Below, one piece after another: positions 2,393-63,285 of a stretch of DNA of 64,000 nt. Source of the DNA: Scenedesmus sp. ARA3 (taxonomy: Eukaryota; Chlorophyta; Chlorophyceae; Sphaeropleales; Scenedesmaceae); NCBI GenBank assembly GCA_004335835.1, contig RWJK01001664.1, forward strand, positions 1 to 64,000, given 5' to 3'. The stretch's first letter is position 1, and every line of letters begins with the position of its first letter. Made by a program: the position numbers and the translations under genes. Under the pieces are notes generated by a model. The model was not told the DNA's origin. It searched no databases and worked only from the letters and a program-made list of their open reading frames with translations.

Positions 2393-2770
2393 CAGCAGAA
2401 GGGTTTTGGGGTTCAAATGCCCCACTGAACCCTGCTCAGGCGTCAAACGAGGGCTTCTTGCGGTCAGCAAAGCGCACGACCAGGCCCCCGCAGCCGAGCT
2501 GCTTCACCAGTGATGCGTTGTCGATGAATTCCAGCCAAAAGGCCAGCTCCCTGCAAGCCCCAGTAGGCTTGAGTGACCTGAACACTGCAGGGCATCTGGC
2601 GGCCCGCTAAGCCCTGCTCAGGCGTCAAAGGAGGGCTTCTTGCGGTCAGCAAAGCGCACGACCAGCCCGCCGCAGCCGAGCTGCTTCACCAGTGATGCGT
2701 TGTCGATGGAGTCCAGCCATGTGATGGCCCGTTGTGCTTGCTCCACGCTGCCATACTCCACAAAGGCCCT
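2393..2770 (-). repeat. Two echoes of the RRM gene's last exon and 3' flank
   Basis: Two partial copies of the terminal exon of the RRM gene lie just past its stop codon, one ending near 2630 and one near 2441. Both keep the residues around VVRFADRKKPSF and the adjoining CGCCTGAGCAGGG stop region. The outer copy also repeats the flanking GGGTTTTGGGGTTCAAA stretch that lies between the real stop and the first copy. The copies lack the upstream half of the RRM, so they are relics or optional alternative 3' ends, not separate genes. Confidence 0.85.
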
Positions 2771-2869
2771 AGCCTGATCAGGCCCAACCTCAGCCCAGCC
2801 CAGGGGTCAAAACCCCGGCTCCTGGCGGCCAGCAGGGTTTTGGGGTTCAAAGGCCCCACTGAACCCTGC

Positions 2870-3606
2870 TCAGGCGTCGAATGAGGGCTTCTTGCGGTCC
2901 GCAAAGCGCACGACCAGGCCCCCGCAGCCCAGCTGCTTTACGAGTGACGCATTGTCGATGGAGTCCAGCCAGGTGATGGCTCGTTGTGCTTGCTCCACAC
3001 TGCCATACTCCACAAAAGCCTGCTCGCGGCTGCGGCGGCTCTTCTTGCTGATCAGCAGCTGCAGCAGCAGCAGCGGCAGCAGGAGACATTGACACAGCAG
3101 GGACAGAAACGTCAGCACAGCAGTGTGGAGTTGGTGTGACGCATGTAGGGATCATAAATCAGCAGGATCACACCTCTCTTCCCAGATAGATGTCTCCTGC
3201 AAGACTGCTGAATTCTGCTCGGATGCTCGGCGCAAAGACCGCCACACACCCACCGCATCACTGCACAAACACTCGCTGCACGTGTCACCGCAAGCACTGC
3301 CAGCACTCACCCGCACGCTCACAAGCTCCCCATAAGGGCTGAAGAAGTCGTGCAGGTCCTTCTCAGTGACCCACCAGCCCAAAAAGCCCACATACACACA
3401 AGTGCTTGGGCACGCATCAGCCTTGCTGCGCAGCCGTGCATTCTGTGCAGCAGCGTCCAGATCATTCCCTAGCTCAGGATCACCCCCTGCTGCATCTGCA
3501 TCTGCTGCTGCTGCTGGGCTAAGGCCGCCGCTCAGCGCGTGCTGCAGGGTGCTTGCCAGAGCGGCGCTGCTGCTCATGCTGCTGCTTCTTGGAAGGCTGC
3601 TGCCAA

Positions 3607-3638
<32 letters not shown>

Positions 3639-3820
3639 GGGCTGGGTTGTGTAGCTGCACTGCTGCTGCTGGCAGCTGATTTGGCAGCACCTGCTGCTGC
3701 TGCTGCTGCTGCTGGGCTGTCCTGGTCGCAGCTGTCATCTATGTCAGCTAGCTCCTGCTGCTCCTTGCTGGGTGAGGCATCTGCCTCATCATCACCCCAA
3801 GTGTCTGTCCACCTGCAGCA

Positions 3821-3852
<32 letters not shown>

Positions 3853-5584: not shown

Positions 5585-5617
<33 letters not shown>

Positions 5618-11547: not shown

Positions 11548-13800
11548 ATGCTGCGTGGTGCCAGCACAACTAGGATCGCCTGTGGTAGTAGCAGGACAGC
11601 TAGCCTGTCAAGCAGGGGGCCATGCCTTCCTGCAAGGTTATGTGGAAGTTCTAGGCAACGCAGGGTGGCGGTATCTGCGCTGCTGGACCCCACCGACTTA
11701 CTGCAGCATGCCCAGGCTCTAGTGCAGCACATGCCGCTGGCCTATGAGCCAGTGGCCGCTCCCTGCAGCCTCATGAACTGCGGAGATGTCGTTCACAGAA
11801 GGTAAGCGCGCGCAGATGCAGCAGCTCGCAGCTGTTGTGCCTCGGCACACCCTGACGTGGCAGCCTGGCTCGTTTCGCAGCACGCTGGATCCGGTTTTGC
11901 GGGGGGAGACGCGTGGCATCGACTGGAGGCTGCTGCCTGTCGCAGCAATGGCGGGGCTGTACCTCTTCGCCACACCTGGTGAGGGCAGCTGGGGGAGACA
12001 CCATCAGTCACTTGCAGGACTGCTGCACATGCAAGGCAGCTGACCCATTGGCGCCCAGACGCCTCAGAAGCGCTGGCATGCATGTTGGTGTGCGTTTGCT
12101 GGCGTTATTGGCAGCAGCGCAGAGCGGCAGGCAGCACCATGGCTGCAATCACACCAGTAGTGCTGGGCGGTGCATCGCAGTGTGCATTCTGGGCAGTGCA
12201 TGTGGCTGTTAGTTCAAACCGGCAGACACAGCTGGCGTGGCACCAGATGTACTGCTACTGTTGTTTGTTGACTGTCCTCGACAATCAAACTTCACGCGCT
12301 GTCATGTCATGCACTGGGCGGCACTGCGTGGCTGCAACGCGCTTTTGGTATGCAGCAGGCTGCGATGTGTGCTTGCAGCATTTGATACCGCATACCACCC
12401 GGCTGCATTATTATCGCAAGTTTGCGAGGTTTGACCATGTTTGACTATGTTTGACTGCTGTCCTGCAGGCGTGCTGCCTGGCGCGGTGGACTACTACATC
12501 ACAGGGCCGCTGCAGCGCCGCAGATCAGCAGCCATTACCAAGGTGCGGCGTGTGCAAATCCGATCAGCAGCAGCTCTGTACTTGCAGTGTGTTCAGCGTA
12601 TTCAGCAAGTGGTTGCGTGTATATTTGAGTATGAGTAGTTCTTTGTCACTGTGCTGGTCACATGTGGTTTGTGCGGCATAACGGCAGCAAAGCTTCATGC
12701 TTGCAATGTGTACAGAATATCCAGGCAGTGGTCAATGCTGCCTGGATTGCTGCTAAATGCGGCGGCCCAACAGCAGTGTCAGGATCGGCGCATGGTGTGG
12801 GAGTGGTCGCTGCTTGCAGCGCTGTCCTGCAGCGCTGTCCTGCACGATGGCGTGCCGCTGGGCAGCTGTCTGGGCTGCACGCCAGCCTTGTTACACAACG
12901 ACTTCAACAACAACAACAACAACGTTATTATAACTTGAATAGCTGAATGACCGGAGTACCTTCACACACTGACATACAGGACGACCTGAAGCTGGGCAAG
13001 CGCCTGGGCTCTGGCGGCTTTGGCAGCGTGTACAAGGCCACACTCACCAACGAGGACGGCAGCACAACGCCAGTCATTGTCAAAAAGGTGCGCAGCAGCA
13101 GCAGCAGTGGCAGCACAGCAGGCGTGAACCAGCAGGCGTGAACCAGCTGCGGTACACTGGGCAGTGCTGCTGCTCCTTTCACACAGCCTACGTATACCAA
13201 CATGCGCTGCTGCCGCTGCTGCTGCTGCTGCTGCTGCTGCAGGCCAAGGAGTTTGGCGAGGCGGAGGTGTGGATGAACGAGCGCATGAGCCGCACCGCAC
13301 CCGCCAGCTGTGCGCAGTTCCTGGGCGGGTTCCTGGACACACCCGAACAGCCGCAGAAAGTGGGGCCGGCAGGTGCGGTTCAAGGCTGTACTGTTAAACC
13401 CTTGCATTATGGGGGGTTTTGTAGGGCCAGCCGCGCGCAGTTCGTGGCGGGGTTCCGGGACACGCTCGAACAGCCGCAGAAAGTGGGGCCGGCAGGTGAG
13501 GGTATACGGCTATCGTTGAACCCTTGCACCATGCTTGTTGAGATATGGCAAGCTGCTCGCAGTTCCTGGGCAGGCCTGGGCACGCCAGAAGTGTCGCACA
13601 AGGTGGGGCCGGCAGGTGTGGTTGCAGCAGACGCATTGTGCTTTGCTGTGCGCTGCAGCAAGTGGCGACCTGCGGTGATGTTGTTGATGTCACAGCGGCG
13701 CTGTATTTACGTAGTATTGATTTGCAATGTGTTATATGTGCGCTGCTTTGCAAGTTTGCTGGCATGCGGCGTTGCTGACGCTGCGCACCTCTGCACTGCC

Positions 13801-13850
<50 letters not shown>

Positions 13851-14899
13851 CACCTGCAGGCGCTGCCGTGGGCCTTGGCGGCGAGTGTGTGTGGCTGGTG
13901 TGGCTGGACGAGGGAGAGGTGCGGACCTGTTTTACAGCAGCAGCAGCAGCAGCATGCATTTGCTGCACTTGACACTTGGCGAGTGTGTGTGGCTGGTGTG
14001 CCTGGACGAGGGAGAGGTGCGGCACACCCCTGCAGCAGCAGCAGCAGTGTCTGCAGCGGCAGCAGCAGCAGCACCGTCTGCAGCACTGTCTGCAGCAGTG
14101 TCTGGGACACCACTCGCAACACAACCTTGATGCACCAGCGGAGCATTTGGCGTGAAAGCGGTGTTGCCCGAGCCCACCTCTTCTTTTCACCTTTTTTGCC
14201 TGCATCCACCTGCAAGCGTTGGCGCTTTCCTGCAAGTTTTCACGCTTTCCTGCGAATGTTCGCACCGCAGTTCACGCTGTACGACCTGATGACAAAGCGC
14301 GAGTTCCCGTACAACTTGGAGCCGCTGCTGCTGGGCCGTGAGCTGCGGCTGCAGAAGAACAAGCGACGGCGGCTGGTGACGCTCAAGCTGGTGACACAGC
14401 AGCTGCTGGAGAACCTGGACACCGCACACGCCACCGGCATAGGTGTGTTATGTTTGTTATTTTCATGTTGTTTGTGACTCAATTGTTTCGTGGATGGAGA
14501 GGCTGGTGACGCGCCACTGGCCCAGGTGTGTATTTTGGGGCGACGGCAGTTTGGTGATGCACTGCTTTGTGATGCACTGCTTGGTGAGCTGCGGCCGCAG
14601 AAGGGCAAGCCGCGGCGGCTGGTGACGCTCAAGCTGGTGACACAGCAGCTGCTGGAGAACCTGGACACTGCTCATGCAACCGGCATAGGTGTGTTACATT
14701 TGTTATGGTGGTTCAGCAGCAGCAGCAGCAGCAGCTTGTGGTTGAAGATATGTTGTTGGCGGAGAGGCTGGTGATGCAGCAGCTGATTGGCTGCTGCTGC
14801 TGCTGCTGCTGCTGCCGTTGCAGTGCACCGCGACATCAAGCCGCAGAATGCTATTCTGTCGATGCACTTGCATGCACTTCTGGGCTTTGATTGGACTGC

Positions 14900-14932
<33 letters not shown>

Positions 14933-15869
14933 AGTGCATCGCGACATCAAGCCACAGAATGCCATCCTGTCAGTGGCTGACCGCCGCCTGAAGCTCATTG
15001 ACTGGGGCGCAGCAGCAGACCTGCGCCTGGGCATCAACTACGTGCCAAACGAGTACCTGCTGGACCCCAGGTGATAATAACTTGTTATGTGACACACCTG
15101 TCACATGATGTTCCATTGCTGAATGTCTCTGGTTGACAGTAGTATGCATGCAATGAAATGGCTGGGGCGTCAGTGAGGACCTGCGCCTGGGATAAACTTT
15201 GCGCCTGCTGGACCCCAGGTGCAAGTCATAATCATAGAAATAGAAACCATAGAAAAGAGAAGCCACACAACCTGAGCAGGTACGCGCCGCAGCAGCAGTA
15301 TGTCATGTCCCGCCAGACCGCCGTGCCTCCCACATGAAGCGATAACGCGCTGTTGACATGTTTGTCTGTTCTATTTTATGTCATTGTGTCTGTGTACAGG
15401 TATGCGCCGCCGCAGCAGTACGTGATGAGCCGCCAGACTGCCACGCCTCCCCCCAAGCCAGTGGCGGCTCTGCTGAGCCCCGTGCTGTGGCAGATGGAGC
15501 ACCCCGACAAGTTTGACATGTACAGCGTGGGCATCCTGCTGCTGCAGGTGAGCATGCTGACTGTTACAAGAGTTATGTAATAACAGAATAACAACACGTG
15601 TAACGTGTTGGTCATTCTAGTTGTGGCAGATGGATCACCCGGACAAGTTTGACATGTACAGCGTGGGCATCCTGCTGCTGCAGGTGAGCATGCTGACTGT
15701 TACCACGGCACAATAACAACAAAGTAACGGGATTTGTAGCGTGGTGATCATTTTACTCGAGATAAATGAAGCCCCTCATCAAGTTGTGCATGTAAAGCGT
15801 GGGCATCTTGCTGCTGCTGTTTTCACGAGTTGATGAGATAGAAGGCTGCTATGGACACCGACTGACCAG

Positions 15870-15908
<39 letters not shown>

Positions 15909-18151
15909 CAATCTGTTCAAATCTCGGCTGTGTGCAGATGGCGTTCCCCAACCTGCGCAGCGACAACAGCCTCATCGCCTTCAACAGGCGGCTGCAGGAG
16001 CTGGGCTGGGACCTGCCGGTGAGAGTCTTGGTGTTAGTAACAAGATAACATGATCTTGAGTGTGTGTAACTTGATTATGAGGACGGCCTCATCGCCTGCA
16101 TCAGGCGGCTGCAGGGAGCTGGGTTGGGACCTGCCAGTGAGGCACATGATCAGTTGCTTGGAACTTGCGCTTACCTGTGTATGTTGTCCCTGACACCTGC
16201 TCAGATATCCTATGCATGCTCCCTCTGCTCTGTGCAGAACTCTGACTTACGCTGCTATGTTTCAATTGCTGTTGTTTTTGTGTTATTTTGTGCAGGCGTG
16301 GAAGCGCGAGGTGGTCCGCAAGCACCCACGCGGCCTCCCCAAGGACCTTGAGGAGGGCTTTGAGGTGCTGGAGGCAGAGGGAGGTGCCGGCTGGGACCTG
16401 GCCTGCCAGGTGAGGTTTAGTGTTGAGGTGCAGGTCTAGGGTTTTGCAGGGCTCAGGGTGTTGCGGTGTAGAGTTTCGCACCCAAAAGTTGCCATTGTGG
16501 TTTGGTCAAGGATCGGAGGAGGGCTTTGAGATTCCTGAACCCTGCTGCAGCTGGTGTTCAACAACCCCAGCAAGTGAGGCACTGCTCCCCAGCTGGTTTT
16601 AATACAGCTGCCAGCAACAGCAGGCAAACACCTGACACCCCTGCAGGCACACACCATGCTCGCTGCAGTCCTGTACCCTCACTCCTTCGCTGTATGCACT
16701 GCTGCACTTGTTCTTTTCCTAAACCCTACTGCAGCTGGTGTCCTACAACCCCAGCGACCGCCCCACAGCAGGCGAGGCGCTGCTGCACCGCTGGTTTGAG
16801 CAGATGCCGGTGGTGGCAGGAGCAGCAACGCCAAGCGGCACTGGCAGTGTGTTAGTGACAAGCTCTGTGGCGGCTGCTACTGCTGTGCGCAGCATCAGCA
16901 ACAGCGTGGGGAGCACGGTCGGCACCGTGGGCAAGCGCGTCACTGAGGCACTGCCTACAGGTGGGTGTTTAACAGTTGTTATGATTACTATAATGATTGT
17001 TGTAACAGTCATAGCAGTCCCCTGTCACACGTACTGTTTCAAAAGCGTCAGCAACAGCGTCGGCAGCACGGTCGGCACTGTGTGCGAGCGCCCAACGAGC
17101 GCAGCGAGCTGGTAGTGCCAGGCAAACCCCTCTGCCAGTGAGCATTGGTTGTTACCATTGTTGTTATCACATTGGACAACAGGTCGAATACCTGTTTTGT
17201 CCCTGCAGGCTTGCTGAAAGAGGCGTCGATTCAAAGCGGTTAGGAGGGCCTGCCTGAGGCGTGGCTGGCCGAGGAGTTTTGGCTGCGACAAACCACAATT
17301 GTGTTACAAGATATGTTACTAACAGGTTTTTAATGTTCAATTTTATATTACTGTTATTTCTGCAGGCTTGCTGGAGGAGGCATTCATCCACAACAGCCAG
17401 GAGGGGCTCACTGAGGCGTGGCTGGCTGAGGAGTTTGGCTGGGACAAGCCCGCGCCCCCACCACCCGGAAGGGGCCAGCAGCGCGAGACAGTGGCGTGGT
17501 TCATGGACCGGCAGGTGCGGCGAACACAGAATAATCGGCTGCTTCTGTATACTTTGTACCATATATACTTAGTGGAGGCCTCGCAGCTTGTGTGGGTGTG
17601 CATTTGGCGGTTACACAGTGGCCTGGTCCATGGACCGGCAGGTGCGGCTCCCTGTTGCTGGGCAAAAAAGATTTTGAGGTTGCTTTCCGTACCTGCAGGA
17701 GGCGTCATAGCTTGTGTGGGTGGGTGGGTGTGCATCTGTGTTTTACACATGTGTGCGCACAGCTACCGACAGTATGAACTTCTTATTGTCTGACAATGAT
17801 GTTCTTGCGCTGCACTGCTCTGGCACCGTATTGCAACCGCAGAGTGAGCTGCAGCGCAAGCTGGCAGCGCGGCAAGCCAAGCTGGTGGGCGATGTGCGCA
17901 AGACAATCCGCGGCGTGGCCCGCAAGCTTGGAAGCTCCCCGAGCCCAAGCAGCAGCAGGCCAGGCACTCCCAAGATCAAAGGCGCTGCTGCTGCTGCCAA
18001 CGCCGCAAACGGCAACGGCAGGGCGTCACCCGCTGACTCTGCTGCTGCTGCTGAGGGGAATGGGAATGGGCGGGTGAGGCCTGCTGCTGCTGCTGCTGGC
18101 GGTGCTGTTGATAGGGTCAAGGAGCTGATGAATGTGCTGCGCTCCAAGTGA
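11548..18151 (+). CDS. STT7: STT7/STN7-type thylakoid state-transition kinase
   Basis: Fourteen exons (11548-11801, 11881-11978, 12469-12542, 12980-13087, 13243-13372, 13860-13918, 14271-14442, 14935-15070, 15400-15547, 15938-16018, 16296-16409, 16735-16960, 17366-17514, 17843-18151) join in phase to 685 residues. Order: Ser/Arg-rich plastid transit peptide; CSLMNC (Cys73, Cys78), matching the two conserved lumenal redox cysteines of Stt7/STN7; one membrane helix ending in FATPGVLPG; kinase domain about 147-480; basic Ala/Ser-rich tail. Kinase motifs: GSGGFG loop, VIVKK lysine, VHRDIKPQN, then DWG where most kinases have DFG (STN7 has DLG), [26 protein letters not shown]. Stt7 phosphorylates LHCII when plastoquinone is reduced and so drives state transitions. 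STN8/STL1 is the nearest alternative, but the cysteine pair and the segment after DWG favour STT7. Its introns are full of exon echoes. Confidence 0.92.
13427..13616 (+). repeat. Two echoes of STT7 exon 5 end
   Basis: The exon 5 end, encoding [20 protein letters not shown] and followed by its GTG donor, is repeated at 13427-13497 and 13555-13616, both downstream of the true exon. The nearer copy is closer to the original; the farther one has more substitutions. Each keeps the GGGGCCGGCAG|GTG donor context. Confidence 0.9.
13803..13859 (+). repeat. (GCT)n tract forming a 3' splice site
   Basis: An uninterrupted run of about sixteen GCT triplets runs almost into the CACCTGCAG acceptor of STT7 exon 6, where a polypyrimidine tract would be expected. 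Confidence 0.8.
13979..14018 (+). repeat. Echo of STT7 exon 6
   Basis: A second copy of the segment encoding [13 protein letters not shown], with Trp changed to Cys at one site, ends in the same GAGAG|GTGCGG donor. It lies downstream of the true exon. Confidence 0.88.
14574..14692 (+). repeat. Echo of STT7 exon 7 end
   Basis: About 115 bases repeat the exon 7 end ([20 protein letters not shown] and the ATAG|GTGTGTT donor) downstream of the true exon, at high identity. Confidence 0.92.
14790..14863 (+). repeat. Echo of STT7 exon 8 start
   Basis: A (CTG)n tract, a TTGCAG acceptor and the coding bases for [13 protein letters not shown] lie upstream of the true exon 8, which has the same CTG tract and start. 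This is an acceptor-side copy and is therefore upstream. Confidence 0.9.
15278..15325 (+). repeat. Echo of STT7 exon 9 start
   Basis: GCAGGTACGCGCCGCAGCAG and the following bases ([13 protein letters not shown]) copy the acceptor and first codons of exon 9, about 120 bases upstream of the true acceptor. Confidence 0.88.
15618..15815 (+). repeat. Echoes of STT7 exon 9 end
   Basis: The exon 9 end ([20 protein letters not shown] with its CAG|GTGAGCATGCTGACTG donor) recurs at 15618-15700, and a fainter copy at about 15770-15815. Both are downstream of the true exon. Confidence 0.88.
15868..15909 (+). repeat. (CTGC)n microsatellite in an STT7 intron
   Basis: A run of about ten CTGC tetramers lies shortly before the exon 10 acceptor. 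It is a simple repeat, likely variable in length between strains. Confidence 0.85.
16083..16137 (+). repeat. Echo of STT7 exon 10 end
   Basis: The bases encoding [16 protein letters not shown] are repeated after the true exon with a one-base insertion, ending in a GTGAGG donor-like site. Confidence 0.85.
17041..17290 (+). repeat. Echoes of STT7 exon 12 end and exon 13 start
   Basis: One intron holds both kinds of copy. At 17041-17090 the exon 12 end ([13 protein letters not shown]) is repeated after its exon. At 17206-17290 the exon 13 acceptor and start (GLLEEA to AEEFGW) is repeated before its exon, with a stop-generating change. Confidence 0.88.
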
Positions 18152-21603: not shown

Positions 21604-21644
<41 letters not shown>

Positions 21645-42123: not shown

Positions 42124-42155
<32 letters not shown>

Positions 42156-44630: not shown

Positions 44631-44664
<34 letters not shown>

Positions 44665-47600: not shown

Positions 47601-48156
47601 GCAGCAAGAAAGCCACAGGTGCTGGAAGCCTCACCCCTGCCGTGGCTGCTTCCATGCAGCTGACATGAAGCAAGAAAGCCACAGGTGCCAAACAGCCTTA
47701 CCCCTGCCGTAGCTGCTGTGTATGATGCGGGGTTGGCTGCTGCTGCTGCAGCCAGGGTGCTGGTTGCTGCTGTGATGGACTGCAGGCTGGCTGCCCCTTG
47801 CAGCAGCACTTCCTGCAAGCACAAGGACAGTTCCGGCAGCAAAGCTTGAGGAATTGATGCTTTGCACAAAGAACAGTGCATGAAACCTCGTGTACCAGTG
47901 CGTGTGCACCCACAGACTGTTTGCCAGCTGCTGCCTGGCCAATGATAAAGCAACGCACAGGGGACTGCACTCTTGCAGGCAGTCATGCTCAGATGACCAA
48001 AGTCATACGTCCCATTTGCACAGATCTAGGTGATGAGGAGGGGTGCTGGGCTGCTCCGCTGGCAGGACCATGCGGTCTTGCCTAGGGCTTGCTGACCTGC
48101 TGTAGGGGACCCATGCACTCCCGCCATTCCACAGCAGATCCAGACCGTCTCCACAT
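41034..48156 (-). CDS. HEATR6: HEATR6-like HEAT-repeat protein
   Basis: Seven minus-strand exons (48156-48097, 47812-47702, 47456-45801, 45197-45091, 44626-42616, 42392-42097, 41592-41034) join in phase to 1599 residues. HEATR6-like signposts appear in order: SPSRYRPPHARG; the acidic VESCSEWSDTSDSEQGPSR; SPHLLTVLLYDPCIK running into VRLLAAALLVALLEGPAARA; RGFTTVSTSLGHMLLALHAG; APYDRLPGHLL; and near the end SPKVVWNAAYAAAGLLQNSC followed by LKIKTHAAAALAAVGSR. Between them are helical HEAT repeats with poly-Ala/Ser/Gln inserts. HEAT proteins are protein-interaction scaffolds; the molecular role of HEATR6 is not settled. The first exon (MWRRSGSAVEWRECMGPLQQ) is the weakest part: its donor is GTCAGC. 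Several junctions carry echoes. Confidence 0.8.
41685..41770 (-). repeat. Echo of the HEATR6-like last-exon start
   Basis: The bases encoding YIPGLSAQLQASLLHLLSL with a GTAG acceptor copy the start of the last exon about 160 bases upstream of the true acceptor. Confidence 0.9.
41925..42015 (-). repeat. Echo of the HEATR6-like penultimate-exon end
   Basis: The segment from LEGNSSSS to GSFPNFR with its CAG|GTACGC donor repeats the end of the 42392-42097 exon, downstream of it. The Ala run of the original is replaced by Cys/Trp codons through a frame change. Confidence 0.87.
45240..45535 (-). repeat. Three echoes of the HEATR6-like VRLLAA exon start
   Basis: GTGCGGCTGCTGGCTGCTG with its CAG acceptor and the following LLEGP codons occurs near 45300, 45411 and, lacking a clean acceptor, 45515, all upstream of the exon used (45197). 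The copies are about 110 bases apart and diverge after the first 55-60 bases. Confidence 0.9.
45545..45790 (-). repeat. Two echoes of the HEATR6-like 47456-45801 exon end
   Basis: The exon end SPHLLTVLLYDPCIK plus the AAG|GTGAGC donor recurs at about 45732-45780 (PHLLTVLLYDPCVK, same donor) and 45545-45600 (PHLLTLLMNDPCNK, donor GTGGGG). Both lie downstream of the true exon. Confidence 0.92.
47575..47700 (-). repeat. Echo of the HEATR6-like second-exon end
   Basis: The bases GGCAGGGGTAAGGCTG at the exon 2 donor, with the following CACCTGTGGCTTTCTTGCT intron bases, recur as GGCAGGGGTGAGGCTTCC plus the same intron stretch about 60 bases downstream. Confidence 0.85.
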
Positions 48157-48566: not shown

Positions 48567-51500
48567 ATGCCAAAACAGGAGAGCCTTTACGAGGTAAATG
48601 TATGGCACGGCCTCCATGTGGCTTCGGCACTCGCTGCCTACATGTTTTGACACCATGTGCCTCTCTGCTGCAGATGCTGGGTCTGGAAAAGGAGGCCAGC
48701 CAGGTAACAGCAGCAGCCTGCACCTATGGCGATGTGCCTCGTTGCATTTTGGTTACATTGCAACCGCTTGTCCTTTCCAGCAGCAGCAGCGGGCAACCTC
48801 TGCCGGTTGCCAGCAAGAGTGAGCAGTGTTGTGCTGTGCCATGCTGTGTGCTGCAGGCAGACATCAAGAAGGCGTACTACAAGCTAGCGCTGCAATGGCA
48901 CCCAGACCGTAACCCTGACCCAGTGAGTAACATAGGCAGTACACTTTGGCAGTCTTTGGATCAATCTGTGAAGGACCGTTGCTCTGCAGCCTCGAAACAG
49001 CTTGCCGGATGCACCAGCTGCCATGACAGCACCCCACCAGCTCCGTAGCTGCGCTAGGCACGCCTTGGAGCCTGGTGTCAAGCCTGCATTGCATACAGAT
49101 GAGCAACAAGATCTGCTAACGGACGCGTGTGGTTGCTGGTCATGCCTTGCAGGAGGCCACCGCCAAGTTCCAGGCCCTGCAGCGCATCTACGAAGTGCTC
49201 AGCGACCCTGTCAAGTGAGCTGCAGGCGGCGCTGTGTGCAATCTAGTCTGCTCAAATACATTTGCAACCTTCAACATGTTGTGACTCAAGTTTTGGTTTA
49301 GATGGTTGTGATAGGTGTTGCAGGGGTTTGAGTTTGCAGCCAGCAATAAATACTGCAGTTGACATGGCAGCTGCTCCCAACCCTTGCTCGCACATCACCA
49401 GTAGCAGCTGCTGCATCTGAAAAGGAGGCAGTTGCAGTGACAATCAGTTACGCTTGTGTGCTGTGCATTGCTGCCACGTTGCAGGCGCAAGCTGTACGAC
49501 AACACAGGCAGCTTGCAGGAGTGTGAGGACATGGTGCAGGTGCGGCAGCTGCCTTTTGTGTCAATGCTGCACTGTACTCCACCTTGAGAGTGAAGAGTTT
49601 GAGTCAGTGATCTTTCCGCGCGCCAGTGCAGCCTTGTTGATTGTGCATGAGTGTGAGGACATGTTGCAGGTGCTGCTTGCCAACGCGCATTGCTTGGTGT
49701 CTCTGAACTCACACGCAGTGCATGTGTGTGGCACTGCCCCTTTGAATCCATACACAGCACACATGCTCAACAGTGTGGTCAACAAAGCAGCCACACCCAT
49801 TGCATGCCCACCGCGGTGTCCCACATGTGCGCCGCGCTGCCCCTGCAGGGTGACAACTTCTCAGAGCTGTACGCCGCCTTCCGCGAGGCCACCAAAGTGA
49901 CAGAAGAGGACGTAGACTCCTTTGCGGTGAGTGGAGTAGCGGCTCGCTGGGCAAGAGCCGGGTCGGGTCGTAGTCGCGAAGTGTGTTGCAGCATGTTTAG
50001 TAATTGAGGCACGGCAGCAGCGCTGGCCAGCTGACAAAGCACAAGGGCGCAACATGATTCCTGTTGTTGACCTATTCCCTTTAGGGCAGCAATGTGTTTT
50101 GACCTGCATGCAATCATGCTTGCGGGTCAAGTACCGCGCTCAGCAGAGGAGCGCAGTAGGGCGGCGCGCCGACCTGCAGCGTCTGGTCAACGTGTACAAA
50201 CGCATCTGAGCACGCATCACTTCTCACTATGTGTGTGCTGCACGCCAATTTGCCTGCAGGTCAAGTACCGCGGCTCTGCGGAGGAGCGTGCAGACCTGCT
50301 GCAGCTGGTCAACAGGTTCAGGGGCGATATGCGCGCCGTGTTTGACTGGCTGATGCTGTCGCGGACTGACCTGGACAGCCACAGGTTCAGGGACACACTG
50401 GAGCAGGCAGTGGCGGCAGGTAGGTCAAAACTCTGCAGGTGCTAGGGTGGAATGGGTTCAGTGATGGTTGTCACGTTTGCAGTTTAATGCCAGCTGATCG
50501 TGCTTGCAGCTAGGCAGCCACAGCTCCAGGGACACATTGGAGCAGGCAGTGGCGGCAGGTAGGGTGGCAGTCATTTGGACGCACCTTGGCATTCTGCGGT
50601 GAACTGCTTGCTGCTGATGCGGCTGCCCGCCACATGGGTGCACCATCTTGTTTCTCACCACCTGCCTGCCTTGCCTGCCTGCCTACCTTGTCTTTCCGCA
50701 CCCAAACACACTGCATCAGCTGCTGGGTGAGCACTGACTGCTGTGCAGGCGAGCGCAAGGCAAAAATGGACTGTTACACCCAAAACATCTGTCACTCACA
50801 CCTGCACACCAATTCTTCTTACACCTCATCAAACCTGGTCTTGCTTCACCCGATCACACCCCAACACAACTGCTTGCAGGCGAGGTCAAAGCCTACAAGG
50901 CGTACAAGGCCTGGTCAGCTTCTGTTGCAGCCACGCCACGCCCCACTGCTGACCCACTCGCACCCCCAAAGCCCAGCAAGAAAAAGAAGGGCAGCAGGCA
51001 AGGAGAAGGGGATGACAGCATGGCCCTGGTGGCAGCCATCAGGGGCAAGGTGAGTGGCTGCGGGTCAGGCGGAAGTTACGACAGCGTGCGTCGCTTGTGT
51101 GGTCAACGGCTATTATCAAGCTTAGGGAAGGCAGTGTTCTGCGTATTGTCCGTATACGCCAAAGGGGTTAATCGTTGTGTATGCGGCAGATGCGGCGAAG
51201 TTGTATCAGCGCCTAAGCCTTCTGGGAGGGCCTTTCAGCCATGTAATGCTGTGACTGATGGTACGCCTGCTTGTAACATGCCTGCAGGGTGGTGCTGCCT
51301 TCAACGGCGTGCTTGCCTCGCTTGAGGCAAAGTATGCCGGCAAAAGCAAGGGCAGCAGCAGCAAAGCCAAAGCAGCAGCAGGCGGCAGCAGCAAGAACAA
51401 GCAGGGCGGCGGCAAGAAGCAGCAGAAGCGGCAGGCAACGCCAAGCAGTGAAGACGAGGATGATGAGGAAGAGGCAGCAGCAGCAGGCAGTGATAGTGAC

Positions 51501-55700: not shown

Positions 55701-58700
55701 GCGTGCAATTGAGAGGGCCGGCGAGCGCGCGTTGGAACGTGCAGGGGAGCGCGCACTAGAACGCGGCGCAGAGCGCGCCATGGAAAGGGCAGGCGAGCGC
55801 GCGCTGGAGCGCGGCGCAGAGCGTGCACTGGAGCGCGCAGGGGAACGGGCACTGGAGCGCGGCGCAGAGCGTGCATTGGAGCGTGGTGCAGAGCGCGCAC
55901 TGGAGCGTGCAGGTGATCAATTGCTGTCCTGCTGCAGCGTGCATGACATTTTAAGTCTGAAGTTACGGCAAAACTGTACAGCACCTGGGCATAGCAGCAG
56001 CGGGTGGCTGTAGCCCAAAGCACACCAGCTGCATGCCATGGCTTGCGATGCCAGCAGTTGCTTGCTGCATCTTGCAGTTCAGTATTTACGGACGTCAATG
56101 TTGGTCCTTGCTGGCTTCGCATGTCCTGCTGCAGGCGAGCGTGCATTGGAGCGTGCCGGGGAGCGTGCAGTCGAGCGCGGCAGCGAGCGAGCCCTGGAAC
56201 GTGCCGGTGAGCATGCTTGCCTTTTGGTGAGCGCAGTGCTGCACTTTTGATGGGCGTTGGGGCATGTACATCAAAGCAGTAAACGTGCTGACTCAGGATG
56301 AGCCATGACCTGGTTTTGTGGTTTAGGAAAACACACATGCACATGCACCGGAAGCTGCATGCGTGCATTCTCTTGCATGCTGTACAGCACAGCGCTGTGG
56401 CCGCTTCTGCAATTATAGGCAGGCGCAAGTGCCCGCTGGCCACATCTATTGCTGTATGATTTGATTGAGATTGTGCTGCACAGCGTGACGCATCCTGCCT
56501 GCCTTGTGCGTTGTGCTGCAGGTGAACGCGCCTTGGAGCGTGCAGGCGAGCGTGCGCTGGAGCGTGCAGGCGAGCGCGCAGTCGAGCGTGCGGGCGAGCG
56601 CGCGCTAGAAAGGGCTGGCGAGCGCGCGCTGGAGCGTGCAGGCGAAGTGGCATTGGAGAGGGCTGGGGAGCGGGCAGTGGAGCGGGCTGGCGAGCGAGTG
56701 CTGGAGCGAGCAGGTGAGCTGTGTTATTTGTGTTGTGGTATATTTGTATTCAATGCCGGCCTTGCAGCTGGTCCTGCAGGCCTTGCTGATTATTGAAGGG
56801 TCAGGAGTGGGGGTAGTAGCGTGGACGCCACTGCCTTGCTGTAGTAAGCAAGAGCTTGATTAAATCGAGATTTGCGCGAGATTTAAGCGAGACCTTGAGA
56901 CTCATGTGGCACATCAGTTGGTTGCTTGCTATGCTTCACATGATGTTTCAATTGAGTTTTGATTATCTTTGGTGCATTGCAGGCGAGCGGGCTCTGGAGC
57001 GTGCCGGGGAGCGCGCTGCGGAGCGCGTAGGCGAGCGCGCTATCACTCCCCTGGCAAGGGCCGGTGAGCAGCAGCAGCAGCGGAAGCAGCCGTGCCAGAT
57101 CATCAGCTGTGCGACTTGCATGTTTTACACAGCAACTGGACTCACGTGCGTATTGCCAGCTGTTTATGGATGCCCTAATCATCTCACCCAATGCAGAGTT
57201 CTGCTTAGCTTGTCCCGGCGTACACATGGTTTGCACATGCTGCGCTAGCGGGAAATCAGGCAGGTTGAACATGTGAGGATGCGCTCATGTGTGTGCTGTG
57301 TTTGCCCTGCCAACTATGATGCATGTTGCTCTGGATTTGCTGTGTCTGGCTTTTGTTTGCAGGTGAACGCGCGCTGGAGCGTGCTGGGGAGCGCGCAGGT
57401 GCGCCAGCTGCATGCTGTGCTGTCAATGGCCATGGGATCATGTTGTTTACTGTGGCGCTTTCCCTGCTGCAGCTTTGGGTGCTTGTGTATCAACTCTGCC
57501 TGTAGCCCGAGCTTTTCCAGCCACGCGATTGCCAGAGCTCTGCTCAACAACACCGACGCACTGTGCTTGTCTTTGTTCGGCCGCACGTTCTACTTCTGTT
57601 TTCACAGCAGCGCAGCTGTCACTGTTTCATCGAAACCTGTGCTCTGAAACGCACTGTTTTGACTGCACTGCAGCCGAGCGCGGCATCGCCAAGGCTGGCG
57701 TGAGGGCTGGCGAGCATGCAGCTGAGAGAGCAGCGGAGCGCGTGGCTGCACATGCGGGAGAGGCGGTTGCAGCGCATGTGGGTGATGTGGCAGTGTCTGC
57801 TGGGGTGCACGCAGGTGGGTTGCGGTCAAGCAAAGGACGTGGCTCAGCAGTGTGAACAGCGCATCGGATGTTGGTTGTTTTGTTTCAAGTGCAAGCAGGA
57901 GGAGTTGTTGTTGCTGCAAGTCTGCACAAACTTGTGTAACATGTGTTGTTGGGCAAGCCACGGCAGCGAAGTCAGCTGCTTGTGTTTGCAGTGCTCCGCT
58001 TATGCAGCTTGTACTGTAAGGGTTGATGCATCAACGGTGACGCATTCTGCACTGCACCGTCGTTGCGCAGGCGCTGCTGCTGGTCATAACAGCACCCTGC
58101 GCAGGGGCATGGGTAATCTTGTGGAATAGATGTAAGTGTAGTGTAAAGCTTGTTACGAGTGCCCCGCCTGCCTTGTTGCTGTTTGGTGTGCAGGTGCTGC
58201 TGCTGCCGGCCATGGCAGCAGCAGGGGCATGGGTACTCTTGAATAGATGTAAGTATAGTGTAAAGCTTGTTATGACGAATGCCCCACCTGCTTTGTTGCT
58301 GTTTGGTGTGCAGGTGCTGCTGCTGCCGGCCATGGCAGCAGCAGGGGCATCGGCGCCTTCCTGGATAAGCTGGTGGACAGGGCGCTGGGCAGCAGCGTGC
58401 TGCGCCGCTTCATGTCGCCGGCGGTGAGCGATGTGATGATGTATTGTGTGATATGTCACATAATGGGATGTTCAGGGAGGCGCGTCACGTGTGTACACTG
58501 CTGCTGCTGCTGCAGGCGATGAGCTGCGTTGGGCGTGGCGCGCTGGTGGGCCTGCCTGCCACGTTTTGCTGTTGTGTGTGTTATGATCAAGTTGCCTGCT
58601 CGCTCACTTCAACTCCTGCTGCTGCTCCTTCTGCTGTTGCTGCTGCTGCTGCTGCTGCTGCAGGTGATGAGCCGTGTGGGGCGTGGCGCGCTGGTGGGCC

Positions 58701-59041
58701 TGCCTGCCATTGGTGCGCTGTTTGTGGCGCACCTGGCACACCAGGACTGGGACAGGCTGACAGAGGAGCGCGCAGCAGGTAGATGGCTGCTGCAGGCCGT
58801 GTATACATGGGTTGGGAGGATGCTGCTGCATGCCGTCTGACAGATTGCATTGGGAAGCATGCAAGCATATATCCCATGTGCACGCGTCGTTTTGTGAAAA
58901 ACACGCTTTGTATGAGAGGGGAAGTTGCATGTGGGTTCTTTCACTCTGTGAGAGTGGTGACGGGCATCTGTGTTTGAACAGCACTTCAAAAGCCAATGCC
59001 ACCATGCTTGATGCTAAGCCTCGTGCTAAACGGCGTGCACA

Positions 59042-59075
<34 letters not shown>

Positions 59076-59340
59076 AGGCAACCGGGTGTCTGCTGGCGCC
59101 TTTGCTGTTGCGCTGCTGGGTGACCTGCTGGACGTGGCTGCACATGTTGTGGTGGTGGTGGGGCTGCTGCACACACACTTCCAGGTGCGGCTCTGATGGT
59201 CTCATTTCGTGGATTGAGCTACCCTTGACGGTGATTATGTCATTATCAGCCTGCAGTATTTGCTGGTTACGACAAGATCAGCCTGCAGTATGGGTGGCAG
59301 TACCTGCTGCACATGGTTGAAAAGGGCGGCCTGCTCAACG

Positions 59341-59379
<39 letters not shown>

Positions 59380-60218
59380 AGGTGGGTCCCCCGGTTGACC
59401 ACCACCTGCTGCACATGCTGGAGCACGCCAACTATCACGGCTGCTGCTGCTGCTGCTGTTGCTGTTGCAGGTGGGCATCCCAGTTGACCACCACCTGCTG
59501 CTGCTGCTGGAGCACGCTACCTGTTTGCTGCTGCTGCCGCTGCTGCTGCCGCCGCTGCTGCTGCTGCTGCTGCTGCTGCTGCAGATGGGCATCCCATTAG
59601 ACCACCACCTGCTGCACATGCTTGAGCACGCTAAACTATTTGCTGCTGTTGCTGCTGCTGCTGCTGCAGGTTGGCATCCCAGTCGACCACCACCTGCTGC
59701 ACATGGTCGAAAAAGGCGGCCTCATCGTTGCAGCAGTAGGCACAGTGGCAGCCACGCTCGGGGAGATCCTGGCGGTGCGTGCGCTGATGCGCAAGGAGCA
59801 GCACAGCACGCGGCTCAAGGTGGAGGCTGCTGCAGCAGCAGCAGTGGAGGCACTGGAGAGGGCGGAGCGGAGTGGGGCAGCAGCAGCAACAGAAGTGCGG
59901 GAGGATGCAGTAGCGGCTGGTGTGCAACTAGTCGTCACTGAGGCGGATGTAGCAGCTGCAGATGGGTTACAGCCGCTTGCACAGGAGCACGTTGCGGTTA
60001 GTGCAGGGCTACACAACACTACTGCAGCCAATGCTGGTGAGGCGGATGCAGCAGCTGCTGCTGCTGCTGCTGCAGCCCAAGAGGAGGCTGGCAGCTGCGG
60101 GTGGCGGTGGGATGATGGAGGGGAGGGGCGGCAGCAGCTGGAGGGTGAAGGAAGCATTGCAGCAGAGCAGATGGAGGAGTGGGTCAGCAACGCTGCCAGC
60201 AGTACCAAGCAGCAGTGA
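52783..60218 (+). CDS. [14 protein letters not shown] membrane protein, probably mitochondrial
   Basis: Eighteen exons join in phase to 954 residues: 52783-53538, 53816-53851, 54216-54251, 54488-54527, 54735-54782, 55005-55100, 55369-55440, 55625-55912, 56135-56206, 56522-56713, 56983-57063, 57363-57398, 57674-57814, 58314-58423, 58664-58778, 59078-59184, 59250-59339, 59670-60218. The N-terminus is basic and Ser-rich with [11 protein letters not shown], like a mitochondrial presequence and cleavage site, then a His/Gly-rich stretch ([10 protein letters not shown]). Residues 253-630 are a long amphipathic helix of GERALERA octads. The C-terminal third has three likely membrane segments (about 676-693, 710-740, 789-812), the second with the run VVVVV, and an Ala-rich charged tail. 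I recognise no family. Apolipoprotein- or LEA-like repeats and membrane-shaping proteins look similar in composition only. The location is inferred. Confidence 0.78.
53105..53172 (+). repeat. 14-nt coding minisatellite
   Basis: AGTGGCCAGCCAGC is repeated in tandem three to four times inside exon 1 of the GERALERA gene. As 14 is not a multiple of three, successive copies are read in different frames ([18 protein letters not shown]). Confidence 0.85.
54735..57063 (+). repeat. 24-nt octapeptide repeat spread over seven exons
   Basis: The unit GGCGAGCGCGCGCTGGAGCG plus CGCA encodes GERALERA. Exon lengths are 48, 96, 72, 288, 72, 192 and 81 nt; the first six are exactly 2, 4, 3, 12, 3 and 8 units. 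Every one starts and ends in phase 1, with the junction falling inside the Gly codon. The 288-nt exon contains a derived unit (GAERALER) in which Gly is preceded by a new register. Confidence 0.92.
58065..58250 (+). repeat. Two echoes of GERALERA gene exon 14 start
   Basis: The exon 14 start (CAG acceptor, then codons [11 protein letters not shown]) recurs at 58190-58245 with a near-identical upstream intron, and less exactly at 58067-58115. Both lie upstream of the true acceptor. Confidence 0.92.
58512..58565 (+). repeat. Echo of GERALERA gene exon 15 start
   Basis: The CTGCAG acceptor and codons [14 protein letters not shown] copy the start of exon 15, about 150 bases upstream. Confidence 0.92.
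59376..59640 (+). repeat. Three echoes of GERALERA gene exon 18 start
   Basis: The exon 18 start ([12 protein letters not shown] after a (CTG)n CAG acceptor) is repeated near 59380, 59470 and 59584, each preceded by its own CTG tract. All are upstream of the exon used at 59670. Confidence 0.93.
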
Positions 60219-61025
60219 GCTGCTGCATATTTTGCGGCAGACACCTGCTGGTAGCTAGTGTGAGGCCCGTAACGTGATCGAAATGCTCCTGTGATGTGTG
60301 CACAGCTGGTTGCAGCCTTTGGGTAGTTGCATTTGCAAGCGCAGCTGCGGTTGCGGCAGCAGGCTATAATGCCTGCTCCGCTTGCCATGTCTAGAGGGGA
60401 GGCAGCAAGCACCAGCATATCCCCAGTGATCCCTGTGCATCCATGTATGTGTAAGAACATTGATGTTGCTCACAGAGGGTCAACTGCGACCTGGCTCCTG
60501 ACTTGGGTTCCTACCTCCCGGAGTCGTGACTACTGGCAGTGATTATATGACAGATGTAACATGTGTCATGTCAGGCAGCCCACAGCCGACAAAGCAGTAA
60601 TTCTTAGTACAGAGATGTGTATGGTGCAACACCTGAATCCTGCTATTCAATAAAAGGAGTCCTTTTGTGCATTACTTCATGATTCACCCGGGTTGGAGGT
60701 TCGAACCTCAAAGCAAGGCGCACGACAGCACTCCTGGCCATACTGCCAGTTACATCGCAAGCTGCCTGCTTGATTGATCCCGCCACCATGTGACCCACAT
60801 CCAATGTTGTTACAACCCCTTGCATTCACAAGCTGTTGGGCGCTGCAGCAAATGAAAGCAGGGTCTTCTATTGCCAATAGCGGCTCAGCGCCCAGGTTCA
60901 TTCAAGTATATGCACGCCTGCTTACACTTCACGCACTGCTGCAAGCACTCAAAGCTGCGCCCTCCAGTTCAACTGGATCACAGCACCCACAACCATCGCT
61001 TAAGCAGTGAAGAGTGTGCACCACG
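60219..61025. other. Convergent intergenic region
   Basis: The GERALERA gene (+) and the last gene (-) end towards each other here. A perfect 14-base palindrome, GAGGTTCGAACCTC, lies near 60697-60710. No gene is seen. Confidence 0.55.
60555..60559 (+). terminator. Possible TGTAA poly(A) signal for the GERALERA gene
   Basis: TGTAA lies about 340 bases after the stop codon. It matches the green-algal poly(A) signal, but the distance is rather long. Confidence 0.35.
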
Positions 61026-63285
61026 TCACATGCCACCTGCTGTGCCTGCTTTCCCCTGGCTGCCAACCAGCTGCGCAGCAGCTGCATCATCCCGCGCATC
61101 TGCGGCAGCCGTTATCTGGCGTGCCGCACGCAGGCTGTGCTTAAGCTGGCTGGCAAGCCACGCTTTGACTGTACGCCCGCCTGGCAGCCGTTTGTTACGG
61201 TAAACCTGCGCAGCAGCTGCTGCTGACGGGCCGTGCAGCAGCGACAGCAGCGCCTGCGATTGCGCAGCGGTCAACTCCCTGCCACCCAGCAGCCGCAGCA
61301 ACGGGGCGGCAAGCTCCGTTTTGATAGGTCCCTGGCTCATGTATTGCACTGCCTGCTGTGCTAGCTCCACCACAGTTGCTGTTGGCAGACGTGCAGCTGC
61401 TGGCAGCTTGCAGAACTGGCTGATGAGCTTCAGCCAGTCATAATTGTACATCGGCTGGTATGCATTCCTGTGCCGCAGCTGCATCACCAGCCGCAGCAGT
61501 GCCTCCGCTGCTGCTGCTGGCAGCTGCGCTGTTGCTGGCTGTCTGAACAGCGTTGAGACGTTGAGGAATGTCATGAAGCGTTCGCCGGGGGCATGTCTTT
61601 GGTGATCAGAGCCAACAACGTTGAGGGCGACAGCAATCAGGTCCGCTGCGCGGGCTGGTGTCAGGCCTTTCAGCAGCTGCAGCAGCAGGTGAGGCAGCAG
61701 CAGCGGCAGCAGCAGCAGCAGCAGCAGCGCTGAAGCAGGCGCAATGGCACACTTGTGCATTGGCACACTTGCGCATTGCACGTGTTGAATGTATGTCACA
61801 GGCACAAGTTCTGACACATCATGCAAGGTGAAAGGGGCAGTTCTTGTAGTACAGCGTGAAAGTTTCCTGCAAACTCACATGCTCGTTTCCTGGTCCTTCC
61901 AAGCGATCGCAGCAGCACACGCGCCGCAGCTCTGCAGGCAGGTCAGCAGCCCACCCCTCCAGCGGCACTCTAGCATCGCTGAGAGCTTGCACCCACACAT
62001 CAAGCCCCTCAAAGCCTTCAAAAGCTCGAACCAACAGCTGCTGGCCTGTGATCTGCACATGCAGCCCTGCCCACACAAGAGCGTATGCAGCAGCCAGCGG
62101 CACGCCAGGAATCGCCAGCAGCTGCTGGCTGCAATGGTTGACCATAGCTACTGTCACTGATGGCTGGCGCAGCAGCCACTGCAGTGCCTGTATGCTGTTA
62201 CGTTTGTCTGCTGCTGCCGGCGCCGCTGCTGCTGGCGCTGCTGCTGGCGCTGCTGCTGCCTGCGCTGCTGCAGCCACGCTGCGCACCAGCAGAGCACTGC
62301 TCAGCCGTGAGCTGCACAGCTGCTGCAGGGCCAGGCTGCTGGCCCGCAGGCGCACAACATCCTCTGCAGTCAGATGGTGCTGTATGCAAATGTCCAGCAC
62401 TGCCGCTGCACGTACTTGCTGCTGCTCCTCAACTGCTACACCTGGCTGCTCCTCAACCGCTGCACCAGCTGCTCCCCAAGCACTGCACCTGGCTGCTCTT
62501 CAACCACTGCACCTGGCTGCTGCTCCCCAAGCCTTGCACGTACTTGCTGCTGCTCCTCAACCGCTGCACCTGGCTGCTGCTCCCCAACCGCTGCACCTGG
62601 CTGCTCCTCAACCCCTGCACCTGGCTGCTCCTCAACCCCTGCACCTGGCTGCTCCCTGTTGCTGTTGCTGAGCCGCAGCACCTGCAGGATGTGCTGACAC
62701 CAGGCTGCGAGTCGCAGCATCCATCTGCGCACTGCAGCATTGTTCATGTGACGACCTGTAGTACAACACAAGGTGCTCCTCAGGGTTTTGTGTTGTGACT
62801 ATTGTGCGGCTTAACATCTGCGCCAGCACTGGCTGTATCATCCAGCATTAGTAGCACTGTAAGCAGCAGCAGGCTATGACTCATCAGCATGCATCATGCA
62901 CCGTGCATGGGCAAAGCAGCAGCAGCAGTAGCAGCAGCACAACCACGTCCTGCCGTGTTGTGCAGGCGCTCAGACTGCAGCCAGGTGACACTGTATGCTG
63001 ATCTCGATTGCTGTTGCTATCCATGCTTGCTGCTGCTCACCTTCCGCATATTGCTGCTCCTTGGTGCTCTTGCTGCTCAGCACCTGCAGGATGCACTGCC
63101 ACCAGGCTGCTAGCTGCAGCATCCAACCGCCTGTTCACAACAGTGCCAGGCGTGAACAGGTGGTTATGTTCAACAGCTGCGCAGCTGCTGGGGAAAGCCA
63201 AAGGGGCGCAGTGCTTGCCATGTGAGCCATAGACTCTGACAGCAGCACTAGTTTCACCTGCAAGACGTTGTGCAGCCCGTTTCAT
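61026..63285 (-). CDS. Unrecognised helical protein with F-box-like segment
   Basis: Three minus-strand exons (63285-63084, 62405-61879, 61676-61026) join in phase to 459 residues. Around residues 75-100 the segment LDICIQHHLTAEDVVRLRAS resembles the first helices of an F-box. The rest is Ala/Leu-rich and looks helical, for example LQWLLRQPSVTVAMVNHCSQ, MYNYDWLKLISQFCKLPAAA and ELAQQAVQYMSQGPIKTELA, perhaps a solenoid. No catalytic motif is seen and I do not recognise the family. A second first exon is possible: 62841-62682 also starts with ATG and ends in the right phase, but it looks like a downstream echo of 63285-63084 (VHPAG against AHPAG at the donor). Confidence 0.6.
62419..62665 (-). 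repeat. 24-27-nt minisatellite (GTTGAGGAGCAGCCAGGTGC)
   Basis: About nine units of GTTGAGGAGCAGCCAGGTGC plus a few bases lie in tandem upstream of the second exon of the unrecognised gene. In one frame they read EEQPGAGV repeats. The unit GTTGAGGAGCAGCAGCAAGT ACGTGCA just before the acceptor also occurs once inside the array, so the array appears to have grown from the acceptor region. Confidence 0.85.

Follow-up and report, generated by a model that had tools for sequence, protein, structure and literature searches.

We analysed a 64-kb stretch of contig C1268 from Scenedesmus sp. ARA3 (RWJK01001664.1, positions 1 to 64,000; hereafter the window), part of an assembly of 87 Mb with a GC content of 57%. 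Many introns of this stretch hold decayed copies of the end or the start of the adjoining exon. We call such a copy an echo, meaning a nearby same-strand copy of an exon end with its donor, or of an exon start with its acceptor, inside an intron. Echoes were found in the genes STT7, ELIP, CLPF, HEATR6 and DNAJC9, in a G3BP-like gene and in the GERALERA gene, confirming by eye in STT7 and by alignment the copies named in an earlier reading of the same DNA (the original prediction).

Genes and features of the window

Gene models were made with our own self-trained gene finder (donor (C or A)AG/GTGAG or GTGCG, acceptor TGCAG/G, the last slash in each marking the splice junction), and STT7 and further genes were curated by eye. 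Pfam matches support a kinase, the G3BP-like gene (NTF2 and RRM), CLPF (UVR), DNAJC9 (DnaJ plus DNAJC9) and an RRM gene; the ELIP fragment had no Pfam match. Between the CLPF-like gene and Tetradesmus obliquus protein OEZ85_000506 there are seven exon matches, six of them at 97-100% and the seventh with an alignment overrunning its exon; this places the alga at or near T. obliquus. HEATR6, GERALERA and fucosyltransferase are gene labels taken over from the original prediction. The features outside CLPF are as follows:

13303..13372, plus strand: STT7 exon end with donor; echoes 13426-13495 and 13548-13615, each followed by a GTG donor; in-register intron remnant, p=0.036.
13880..14022, plus strand: end of STT7 exon 13860-13918 with GTGCGG; echo 13978-14022, 98% identical, 53 nt spacer.
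14338..14706, plus strand: end of STT7 exon 14271-14442 with donor; echo 14584-14706, 91%; intron remnant, p=0.036.
14819..14971, plus strand: STT7 acceptor-type echo 14824-14860 upstream of exon start 14935; four differences, all synonymous.
15281..15452, plus strand: STT7 acceptor-type echo upstream of exon start 15400, distance d=120; by eye and by alignment.
15486..15817, plus strand: tandem array of the end of STT7 exon 15400-15547; period 136, 2.4 copies, intron half still similar.
15966..16141, plus strand: end of STT7 exon 15939-16018 with donor; echo 16083-16141 with a 1-nt frameshift.
16532..16755, plus strand: STT7 exon start 16735 with an acceptor-type echo upstream, d=184.
17203..17450, plus strand: STT7 exon start 17366; its acceptor-type echo, upstream at d=157, contains an in-frame stop and a frameshift.
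17488..17648, plus strand: STT7 exon end 17514 with GTGCGGC; echo 17615-17648; intron halves again similar in register about 50 nt further.
23422..23640, minus strand: acceptor-type copy 23562-23636 of G3BP-like exon start 23500, d=136; a 75-nt in-phase cassette with both splice sites and no amino-acid differences.
33230..33423, plus strand: ELIP exon end 33285 with GTGAG; echo 33363-33423, 93%.
34441..34845, plus strand: ELIP exon end 34511 with donor; three echoes (donors 34623, 34743 and 34833) with dissimilar spacers.
41862..42242, minus strand: HEATR6 exon end 42097; echo at 41862-42027.
45224..45842, minus strand: HEATR6 exon end 45801; an echo of 67-nt period and others, with acceptor-type echoes of exon start 45197.
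47597..47717, minus strand: HEATR6 exon end 47702 with donor; echo, d=66-67.
49514..49676, plus strand: DNAJC9 exon end 49539 with GTGCGGC; echo 49644-49676.
50104..50288, plus strand: DNAJC9 acceptor-type echo upstream of exon start 50260; the AG of the echo is lost.
50376..50563, plus strand: DNAJC9 exon end 50419 with GTAGG; echo 50515-50563; the same segment is echoed in the relative P0005.
58064..58353, plus strand: GERALERA gene, exon start 58314 preceded by an acceptor-type tandem copy; period 120-123, identity of the intron half 86%.
58498..58709, plus strand: GERALERA gene, exon start 58664 with an acceptor-type echo upstream, d=148.
59380..59722, plus strand: GERALERA gene, exon start 59471 with copies around it, at d=89 and other distances.

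Frequency and locality of the echoes

Self-BLAST of the window with a low-complexity filter gave 114 direct pairs less than 1 kb apart and no inverted close pair; about 80 close inverted matches (<1.6 kb) appeared in the unfiltered search, and all were gone once filtered. The alignment of introns against their flanking exons, as proposed in the original prediction, was run on a sample of contigs and placed echoes far above mismatched controls. Exon flanks of up to 120 nt matched their own intron at a score of at least 36 on 35 of 190 sides in the window and on 8 of 302 sides in the first five other contigs, compared with 26 of 4,920 mismatched flank-intron controls from all those contigs together. 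Counted by intron, with introns of 1.5 kb or more and low-scoring genes left out, echoes were present in 36/113 introns of the window contig and 20/202 of the sampled other contigs (mismatch controls 0.9% and 0.7% per side). Among the nucleotides of coding sequence (CDS), 1,930 of 25,752 (7.5%) in the window contig and 1,157 of 73,925 (1.6%) elsewhere had a nearby non-coding copy at 80% or more, and an additional 10 kb of the window contig (L018) held nine further duplication clusters. Echo-bearing introns were longer (median 333 versus 258 bp, p=0.008); excess sequence from duplication makes up about 23% of the length of introns in the window contig and 14% in the sample as a whole, both upper estimates that include clusters outside introns.

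The echoes are local. Segments of STT7, CLPF and ELIP matched nothing else in the genome, except that CTG/CAG-rich stretches of STT7 did so (40 of 77 candidates scored). A transposable or introner origin was rejected for these three genes on this ground, and neither a second haplotype nor a paralogue that could have served as template was found for them in the assembly.

The description of the copies as partial, junction-bearing pieces does not cover all of them: whole-exon copies occur in an RRM gene (2396-3020) and in an LRR gene (37.5-38.5 kb). In the former, the last exon stands in three copies, 90-93% identical, stop codon and sequence past the stop included. Repeats at 54.7-57.4 kb and 62.4-62.7 kb turned out to be coding repeats and not junction fragments; the predicted protein at 54732-57397 carries long runs of a 24-nt coding repeat (GERALERA) across several exons. 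The absence of pairs at 3.0-13.3 kb and 17.7-21.8 kb fits the statement that the gene labelled fucosyltransferase lacks echoes.

Side of the copies

Exon ends had been predicted to be repeated downstream and exon starts upstream. This holds as a tendency and not as an absolute rule. At 404 junctions outside the window contig, a copy (match of at least 26 of 34) lay on the predicted side 26 times and on the opposite side 6 times. At the 209 junctions of the window contig the counts were 54 and 25, inflated by coding repeats and blurred by the gene finder, which labels some echoes as exons. In exons of at least 160 nt from all contigs, the near end matched the intron in 13/124 and 14/130 cases and the far end in 4/124 and 6/130 (pooled, 27 versus 10 of 254). 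With its exceptions, the bias is mostly a matter of geometry and purifying selection, and a special mechanism is needless, because a junction-spanning segment shorter than the exon can leave a copy only on that side, and because use of the inner splice site would add intron sequence to the message.

Decay of the copies

In 32 hand-listed exon-echo pairs, codon positions 1, 2 and 3 held 39, 41 and 85 differences, with about 514 sites per position. Half of the changed codons (71 of 141) were non-synonymous, two in-frame stops occurred in 496 codons, and frameshifts occur too. Echoes thus decay as non-coding DNA, the pattern being the one expected from free drift in the echo and an exon that changes only at silent sites, and coding selection on echoes as a rule was rejected by the codon-position pattern. 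GT or AG was kept in 31 of 33 echoes, one of them (STT7 16960) in doubtful register; neutral decay would leave about 28, so the count gives no sign of selection on the splice sites of echoes. A few copies differ from their exon only synonymously (G3BP 23562-23636, the first downstream copy of the CLPF array, one ELIP echo and one STT7 echo), so single functional copies are possible. The G3BP-like copy is a possible cassette exon that would add 25 residues.

CLPF allows the choice among copies to be compared with a protein, that of T. obliquus, which derives from another T. obliquus sequence, outside the window assembly. Three features concern this gene:

28052..28256, minus strand: exon start 28100 with an acceptor-type echo upstream, d=143; the T. 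obliquus protein agrees with the last copy, 100% versus 83%.
28685..28991, minus strand: end of exon 29077-28940 with two downstream copies; candidate alternative intron 28977-28845, using AG/GT of both copies.
29359..30348, minus strand: end of exon 30429-30254 with donor; a 221-bp tandem array of 4.4 copies, mostly intronic.

The T. obliquus protein contains one copy of each. Within the 221-bp array its sequence agrees with the first copy, which alone adjoins the rest of its exon, and among the acceptor copies with the last (28100). These two cases support the idea that the outermost splice site stays in use, but one CLPF pair may depart from it. At 28940 the first window copy encodes Leu and the second Gln, and Gln is found in 10 of 11 open reading frames (ORFs) carrying the motif, T. 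obliquus included. Judging from the sequence, the downstream copy may be used through the AG/GT of both copies (28977-28845, 133 nt), the classic layout of an intron birth.

Probable tandem origin and the break at the splice junction

The shortest period per cluster had a median of 126 bp (quartiles 107.5-151.5; 76 clusters) and showed no clear codon-phase preference (26, 27 and 19 of 72 clusters in the three phases). Full arrays were seen in CLPF (221 bp, similar over the whole unit), in STT7 (15486-15817) and in the GERALERA gene (58064-58353). Of 27 pairs, 12 showed similarity of the intron halves in register (each at p<0.05 by comparison with mismatched introns, in small null sets of 21-42); against a shuffled null it was found in 14 of 31 pairs at p<0.01, some of them within CTG/CAG tracts. 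Because of the in-register remnants, many echoes are best read as having begun as junction-spanning tandem duplications. Remnants and full arrays thus favour the duplication mode that had been predicted, but ordinary decay does not readily explain how sharply similarity is lost at the junction.

Over 30 nt of exon and 40 nt of intron, identity was 0.90 and 0.55 for 48 echoes of the window contig, and the intron value was 0.54 for 25 echoes elsewhere; chance identity for intron halves is 0.48-0.49. The intron half reached 0.70 in 7 of the 48 and 5 of the 25, and it was at or below 0.60 in 49 of 73 echoes, or 40 of 64 once the coding repeats of GERALERA are set aside. Among the hand-listed echoes, exon and intron halves stood at 0.90 and 0.52 for donor-type and 0.83 and 0.59 for acceptor-type echoes. 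The intronic ELIP echoes, compared mutually, gave 0.81-0.89 in their exon-like parts and 0.42-0.48 in their spacers; the contrast was mild in the CLPF array (0.89-0.90 versus 0.78-0.83).

In 58 of the 76 clusters the chosen pair had a spacer and in 18 it was seamless, the choice within each cluster favouring high identity. An unrelated spacer was present in 25 of the 27 clusters whose chosen pair was at least 93% identical, a set that includes coding repeats and one scaffold-gap pair. Among 18 junctions at this identity, the intron-side match extended over just 3-7 nt in nine and over 14-115 nt in the other nine. A neutral-decay simulation of 23 of the 33 pairs (exon identity of at least 0.75) predicted intron halves of 0.72-0.82; 12 of 23 pairs fell below the 1% limit at an indel/substitution ratio of 0.2, and 5 of 23 at 0.6. 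The fit was best when introns changed about three times as fast as echoes, which left 1 to 4 of 23 pairs outside the limit. Differences were clustered within exon halves (p=0.014, 18 pairs), as conversion patches would give, in weak agreement with conversion.

As to placement, 56 clusters lay at junctions, 3 in introns only, 9 in intergenic sequence and 8 in exons, where 20.6, 19.9, 16.5 and 19.0 would be expected at random; at 90% identity or more the counts were 26, 3, 7 and 7. A junction preference of duplication is possible. We take the excess as suggestive only, because copies of constrained exons stay detectable longer and missed exons inflate the intron expectation.

Two duplications from the sampled loci deserve separate mention. 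At C1268:73671-73925 (L018:9671-9925) lies a near-perfect 125-bp tandem duplication (98%), which illustrates a recent event cleanly; its copies share 5 nt when aligned, an overlap of the kind left by microhomology. At C100:10448-10696 (L004:448-696), the same repeat stands on both sides of a run of N, a probable artefact of a scaffold gap.

Echoes in relatives

Three protein searches yielded 56 ORFs of relatives with an exon at least 80% identical. Echoes were found in three of them (P0005, P0190 and P0257), a lower bound because an ORF covers an intron only in part. In P0005, the DNAJC9 exon end that is echoed in the window has an echo too (by scan); P0190 (STT7) has an exon-start echo 126 nt upstream (by eye) and a further downstream piece (by scan); P0257 (CLPF) has an exon-start echo 123 nt upstream (by eye). 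P0133 and P0174, also flagged by the scan, were read as exons split by an intron.

By hand back-translation, 3 of 42 nt separate the DNAJC9 echo of the window from its exon, and at least 7 determined sites separate it from the P0005 echo; at five sites the two window sequences are alike and the P0005 echo is not. This pattern suggests later homogenisation of the echo by conversion from its own exon, which we prefer to the same echo having arisen twice with nearly the same boundaries.

The STT7 intron 15548-15938, which holds two echoes, is absent from the ORFs of five relatives at 96-98% (P0162, P0183, P0184, P0185 and P0226). Because ORFs of more distant relatives (P0127, P0135, P0139 and P0159) leave the exon at this position, intron loss is as likely as gain.

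Distribution across contigs

The original prediction had proposed a genome-wide mode of intron growth. The density of duplication clusters, which ranges from 0 to 10 per 10 kb, does not bear out that extent and points to growth through short junction-crossing duplications that is frequent but patchy. In the larger samples it was 6.1 per 10 kb in the window contig, 4.5 in C1100, 2.1 in C700, 1.4 in C100 and 0.7 in C1, with none in C300 and C500 (40 kb each). Short samples gave 10 (C400, 5 kb), 6 (C600), 5.2 (C900), 4 (C1000) and 2 (C1400 and C1500), and none in C200, C800 and C1200 (5 kb each).

C300 and C500 (loci L006-L013) are 80 kb of gene-bearing sequence of the same composition without a local direct pair at the BLAST threshold; by the weaker score test, 2 of 28 introns in C500 and 0 of 48 in C300 had an echo. 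A contaminant origin of these contigs was rejected, their tetranucleotide profiles agreeing with that of the window (0.990 and 0.995).

Proposed mechanism and alternative explanations

The reading that we favour, at a probability of about one half, is short tandem duplication across a splice junction, neutral decay of the extra copy, and refreshment of its exon half by conversion. Same-strand tandem duplications of about 126 bp would arise often in some regions of the genome. Those that cross a junction would be tolerated because the first donor or the last acceptor still gives the same message, the extra copy lengthening the intron, as the T. obliquus protein supports in CLPF and as we infer for most copies elsewhere. 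Freed from constraint, the extra copy would gather stops, frameshifts and substitutions like intron DNA, as the hand-listed pairs do. The intron half of the unit would erode to nothing, and the exon half would remain recognisable longer, both through its constrained partner and, putatively, through gene conversion from the exon refreshing the echo. The end product would be an exon piece with its splice signal, set apart by an unrelated spacer. Of this chain, the copies, their side bias and locality, their neutral decay and some tandem units were observed; conversion and the disuse of most copies are deduced.

Several points weigh against this reading. An intron remnant was undetectable in 15 of 27 pairs. 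Conversion is not forced, because a generous indel rate leaves just 5 of 23 pairs outside the neutral limit, and between repeats of 40-80 nt lying 100 nt apart it must compete with deletion. DNAJC9 is one case, read from a protein ORF, with the P0005 exon known as protein only, and two independent origins of the echo in the window and P0005 are also possible. The junction excess goes beyond even a threefold detectability handicap (p=1e-4), with a null that rests on our own gene models. Near-identical spaced direct copies also lie outside predicted exons, at 26586-26730 and 37226-37388 (26 and 35 nt); they look like direct spaced copying, which may thus extend beyond exons.

Plain junction-crossing duplication with neutral decay and no conversion would lay the contrast between the halves to a conserved exon partner and fast intron indels. 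The neutral codon-position pattern and splice-site retention, the arrays and remnants in register, and the 5 of 23 pairs below the 1% limit at a ratio of 0.6 agree with it, but several pairs with exon halves of 0.97-1.00 have intron halves at chance level, the ELIP spacers have diverged far beyond the exon-like parts, and 12 of 23 pairs fall outside at 0.2; we regard it as unlikely. The spacing of 25 of the 27 most similar chosen pairs, the nine junctions with 3-7 nt of intron-side match and the lack of inverted close copies after filtering would suit an exon-limited copying, in which an exon fragment carrying 3-8 nt of splice signal would land 50-170 nt from its source, for instance through repair templated by nascent RNA with ends set by splicing factors. 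That process is distinctly unlikely in our judgement: the other nine junctions reach 14-115 nt into the intron, and the 12 of 27 remnants, the true arrays and the copies in P0190 and P0257 that include intron-side sequence need ordinary tandem duplication as well. The broader proposition that copying or conversion respects exon boundaries, an exon piece and its splice signal being copied or refreshed in introns and stopping at the junction, we consider quite improbable. Were it true, RNA processing, through a nascent RNA template or R-loops limited by small nuclear ribonucleoproteins (snRNPs), would mark the genome and drive intron growth.

Selection for functional alternative or mutually exclusive exons could account for the synonymous-only copies in G3BP, CLPF, ELIP and STT7 and for the 75-nt G3BP cassette with both sites. 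It is very improbable as a general explanation, given the half of changed codons that are non-synonymous, the stops and frameshifts, the many echoes that span an exon end or start only, and the single copy in the T. obliquus CLPF protein and in the P0254 ORF (from an apparent transcript set). Even less credible is an assembly artefact joining two haplotypes side by side. The divergence of exon and intron halves resembles allelic divergence and one duplicate adjoins a run of N (C100), but echoes carry non-synonymous changes, stops and frameshifts, a second copy of STT7, CLPF or ELIP was not found in the assembly, and echoes recur in the independent sequence sets of P0005, P0190 and P0257.

Comparison with known systems

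Literature searches of an open-licence library, whose coverage leaves out most subscription journals, listed no published description of the pattern. To our knowledge, intron lengthening without transposons is poorly documented. Introner elements are dispersed families that add intron sequence in many genes; here no dispersed family was seen, the STT7, CLPF and ELIP copies matching only their neighbour exon (CTG/CAG-rich stretches aside).

Closer is intron gain by tandem duplication of AGGT-containing sequence. As described for potato RdRp (PMC4974935) and Drosophila (PMC2891723), local tandem duplication may likewise cross an exon-intron boundary while splicing preserves the message. By comparison with those accounts, existing introns are enlarged here, and the copies include an existing junction, sit within the intron and number dozens in one contig. 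The 33 listed echoes are intronic, with their own intron half or spacer, and are not new introns bounded by two AG/GT copies; one CLPF pair (28977-28845) is a possible true intron birth of this type.

Tandem exon duplication (PMC9013439) also leaves exon-like copies in neighbouring introns, some unannotated, whereas the present echoes are largely exon fragments decaying as non-coding DNA. A whole exon with both sites and an open frame is seen in G3BP 23562-23636; most of the listed echoes span an exon end or start only. The same study gives CDS with a near copy as 0.08% in fly, 0.06% in worm and about 2% in human; our 7.5% in the window contig and 1.6% in others can be compared with these only roughly, method and search range being different. 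In rice (Vaughn and Bennetzen 2014, via PMC7407515; also PMC8355091), break repair is reported in the passages available to leave local duplications of 10-1000 bp, among them non-tandem ones copied from within 200 bp. Those passages describe no association with junctions; the present material has a narrow period (interquartile range 107-151 bp) and, once filtered, no inverted copies. A five-species comparison (PMC5966456) gives T. obliquus a GC content of 57%, like the assembly studied here, and introns averaging 462 bp, the longest of the five.

Taken together, the mechanism appears to be of a known kind, local duplication, acting at splice junctions at an apparently unusual density, with the exon-limited similarity reflecting gene conversion or else a novel mode of copying. 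These two can be told apart by the sharp break at the splice junction, and dozens of intermediates of differing age in one genome allow the steps of duplication, splice-site choice and decay to be put in order.

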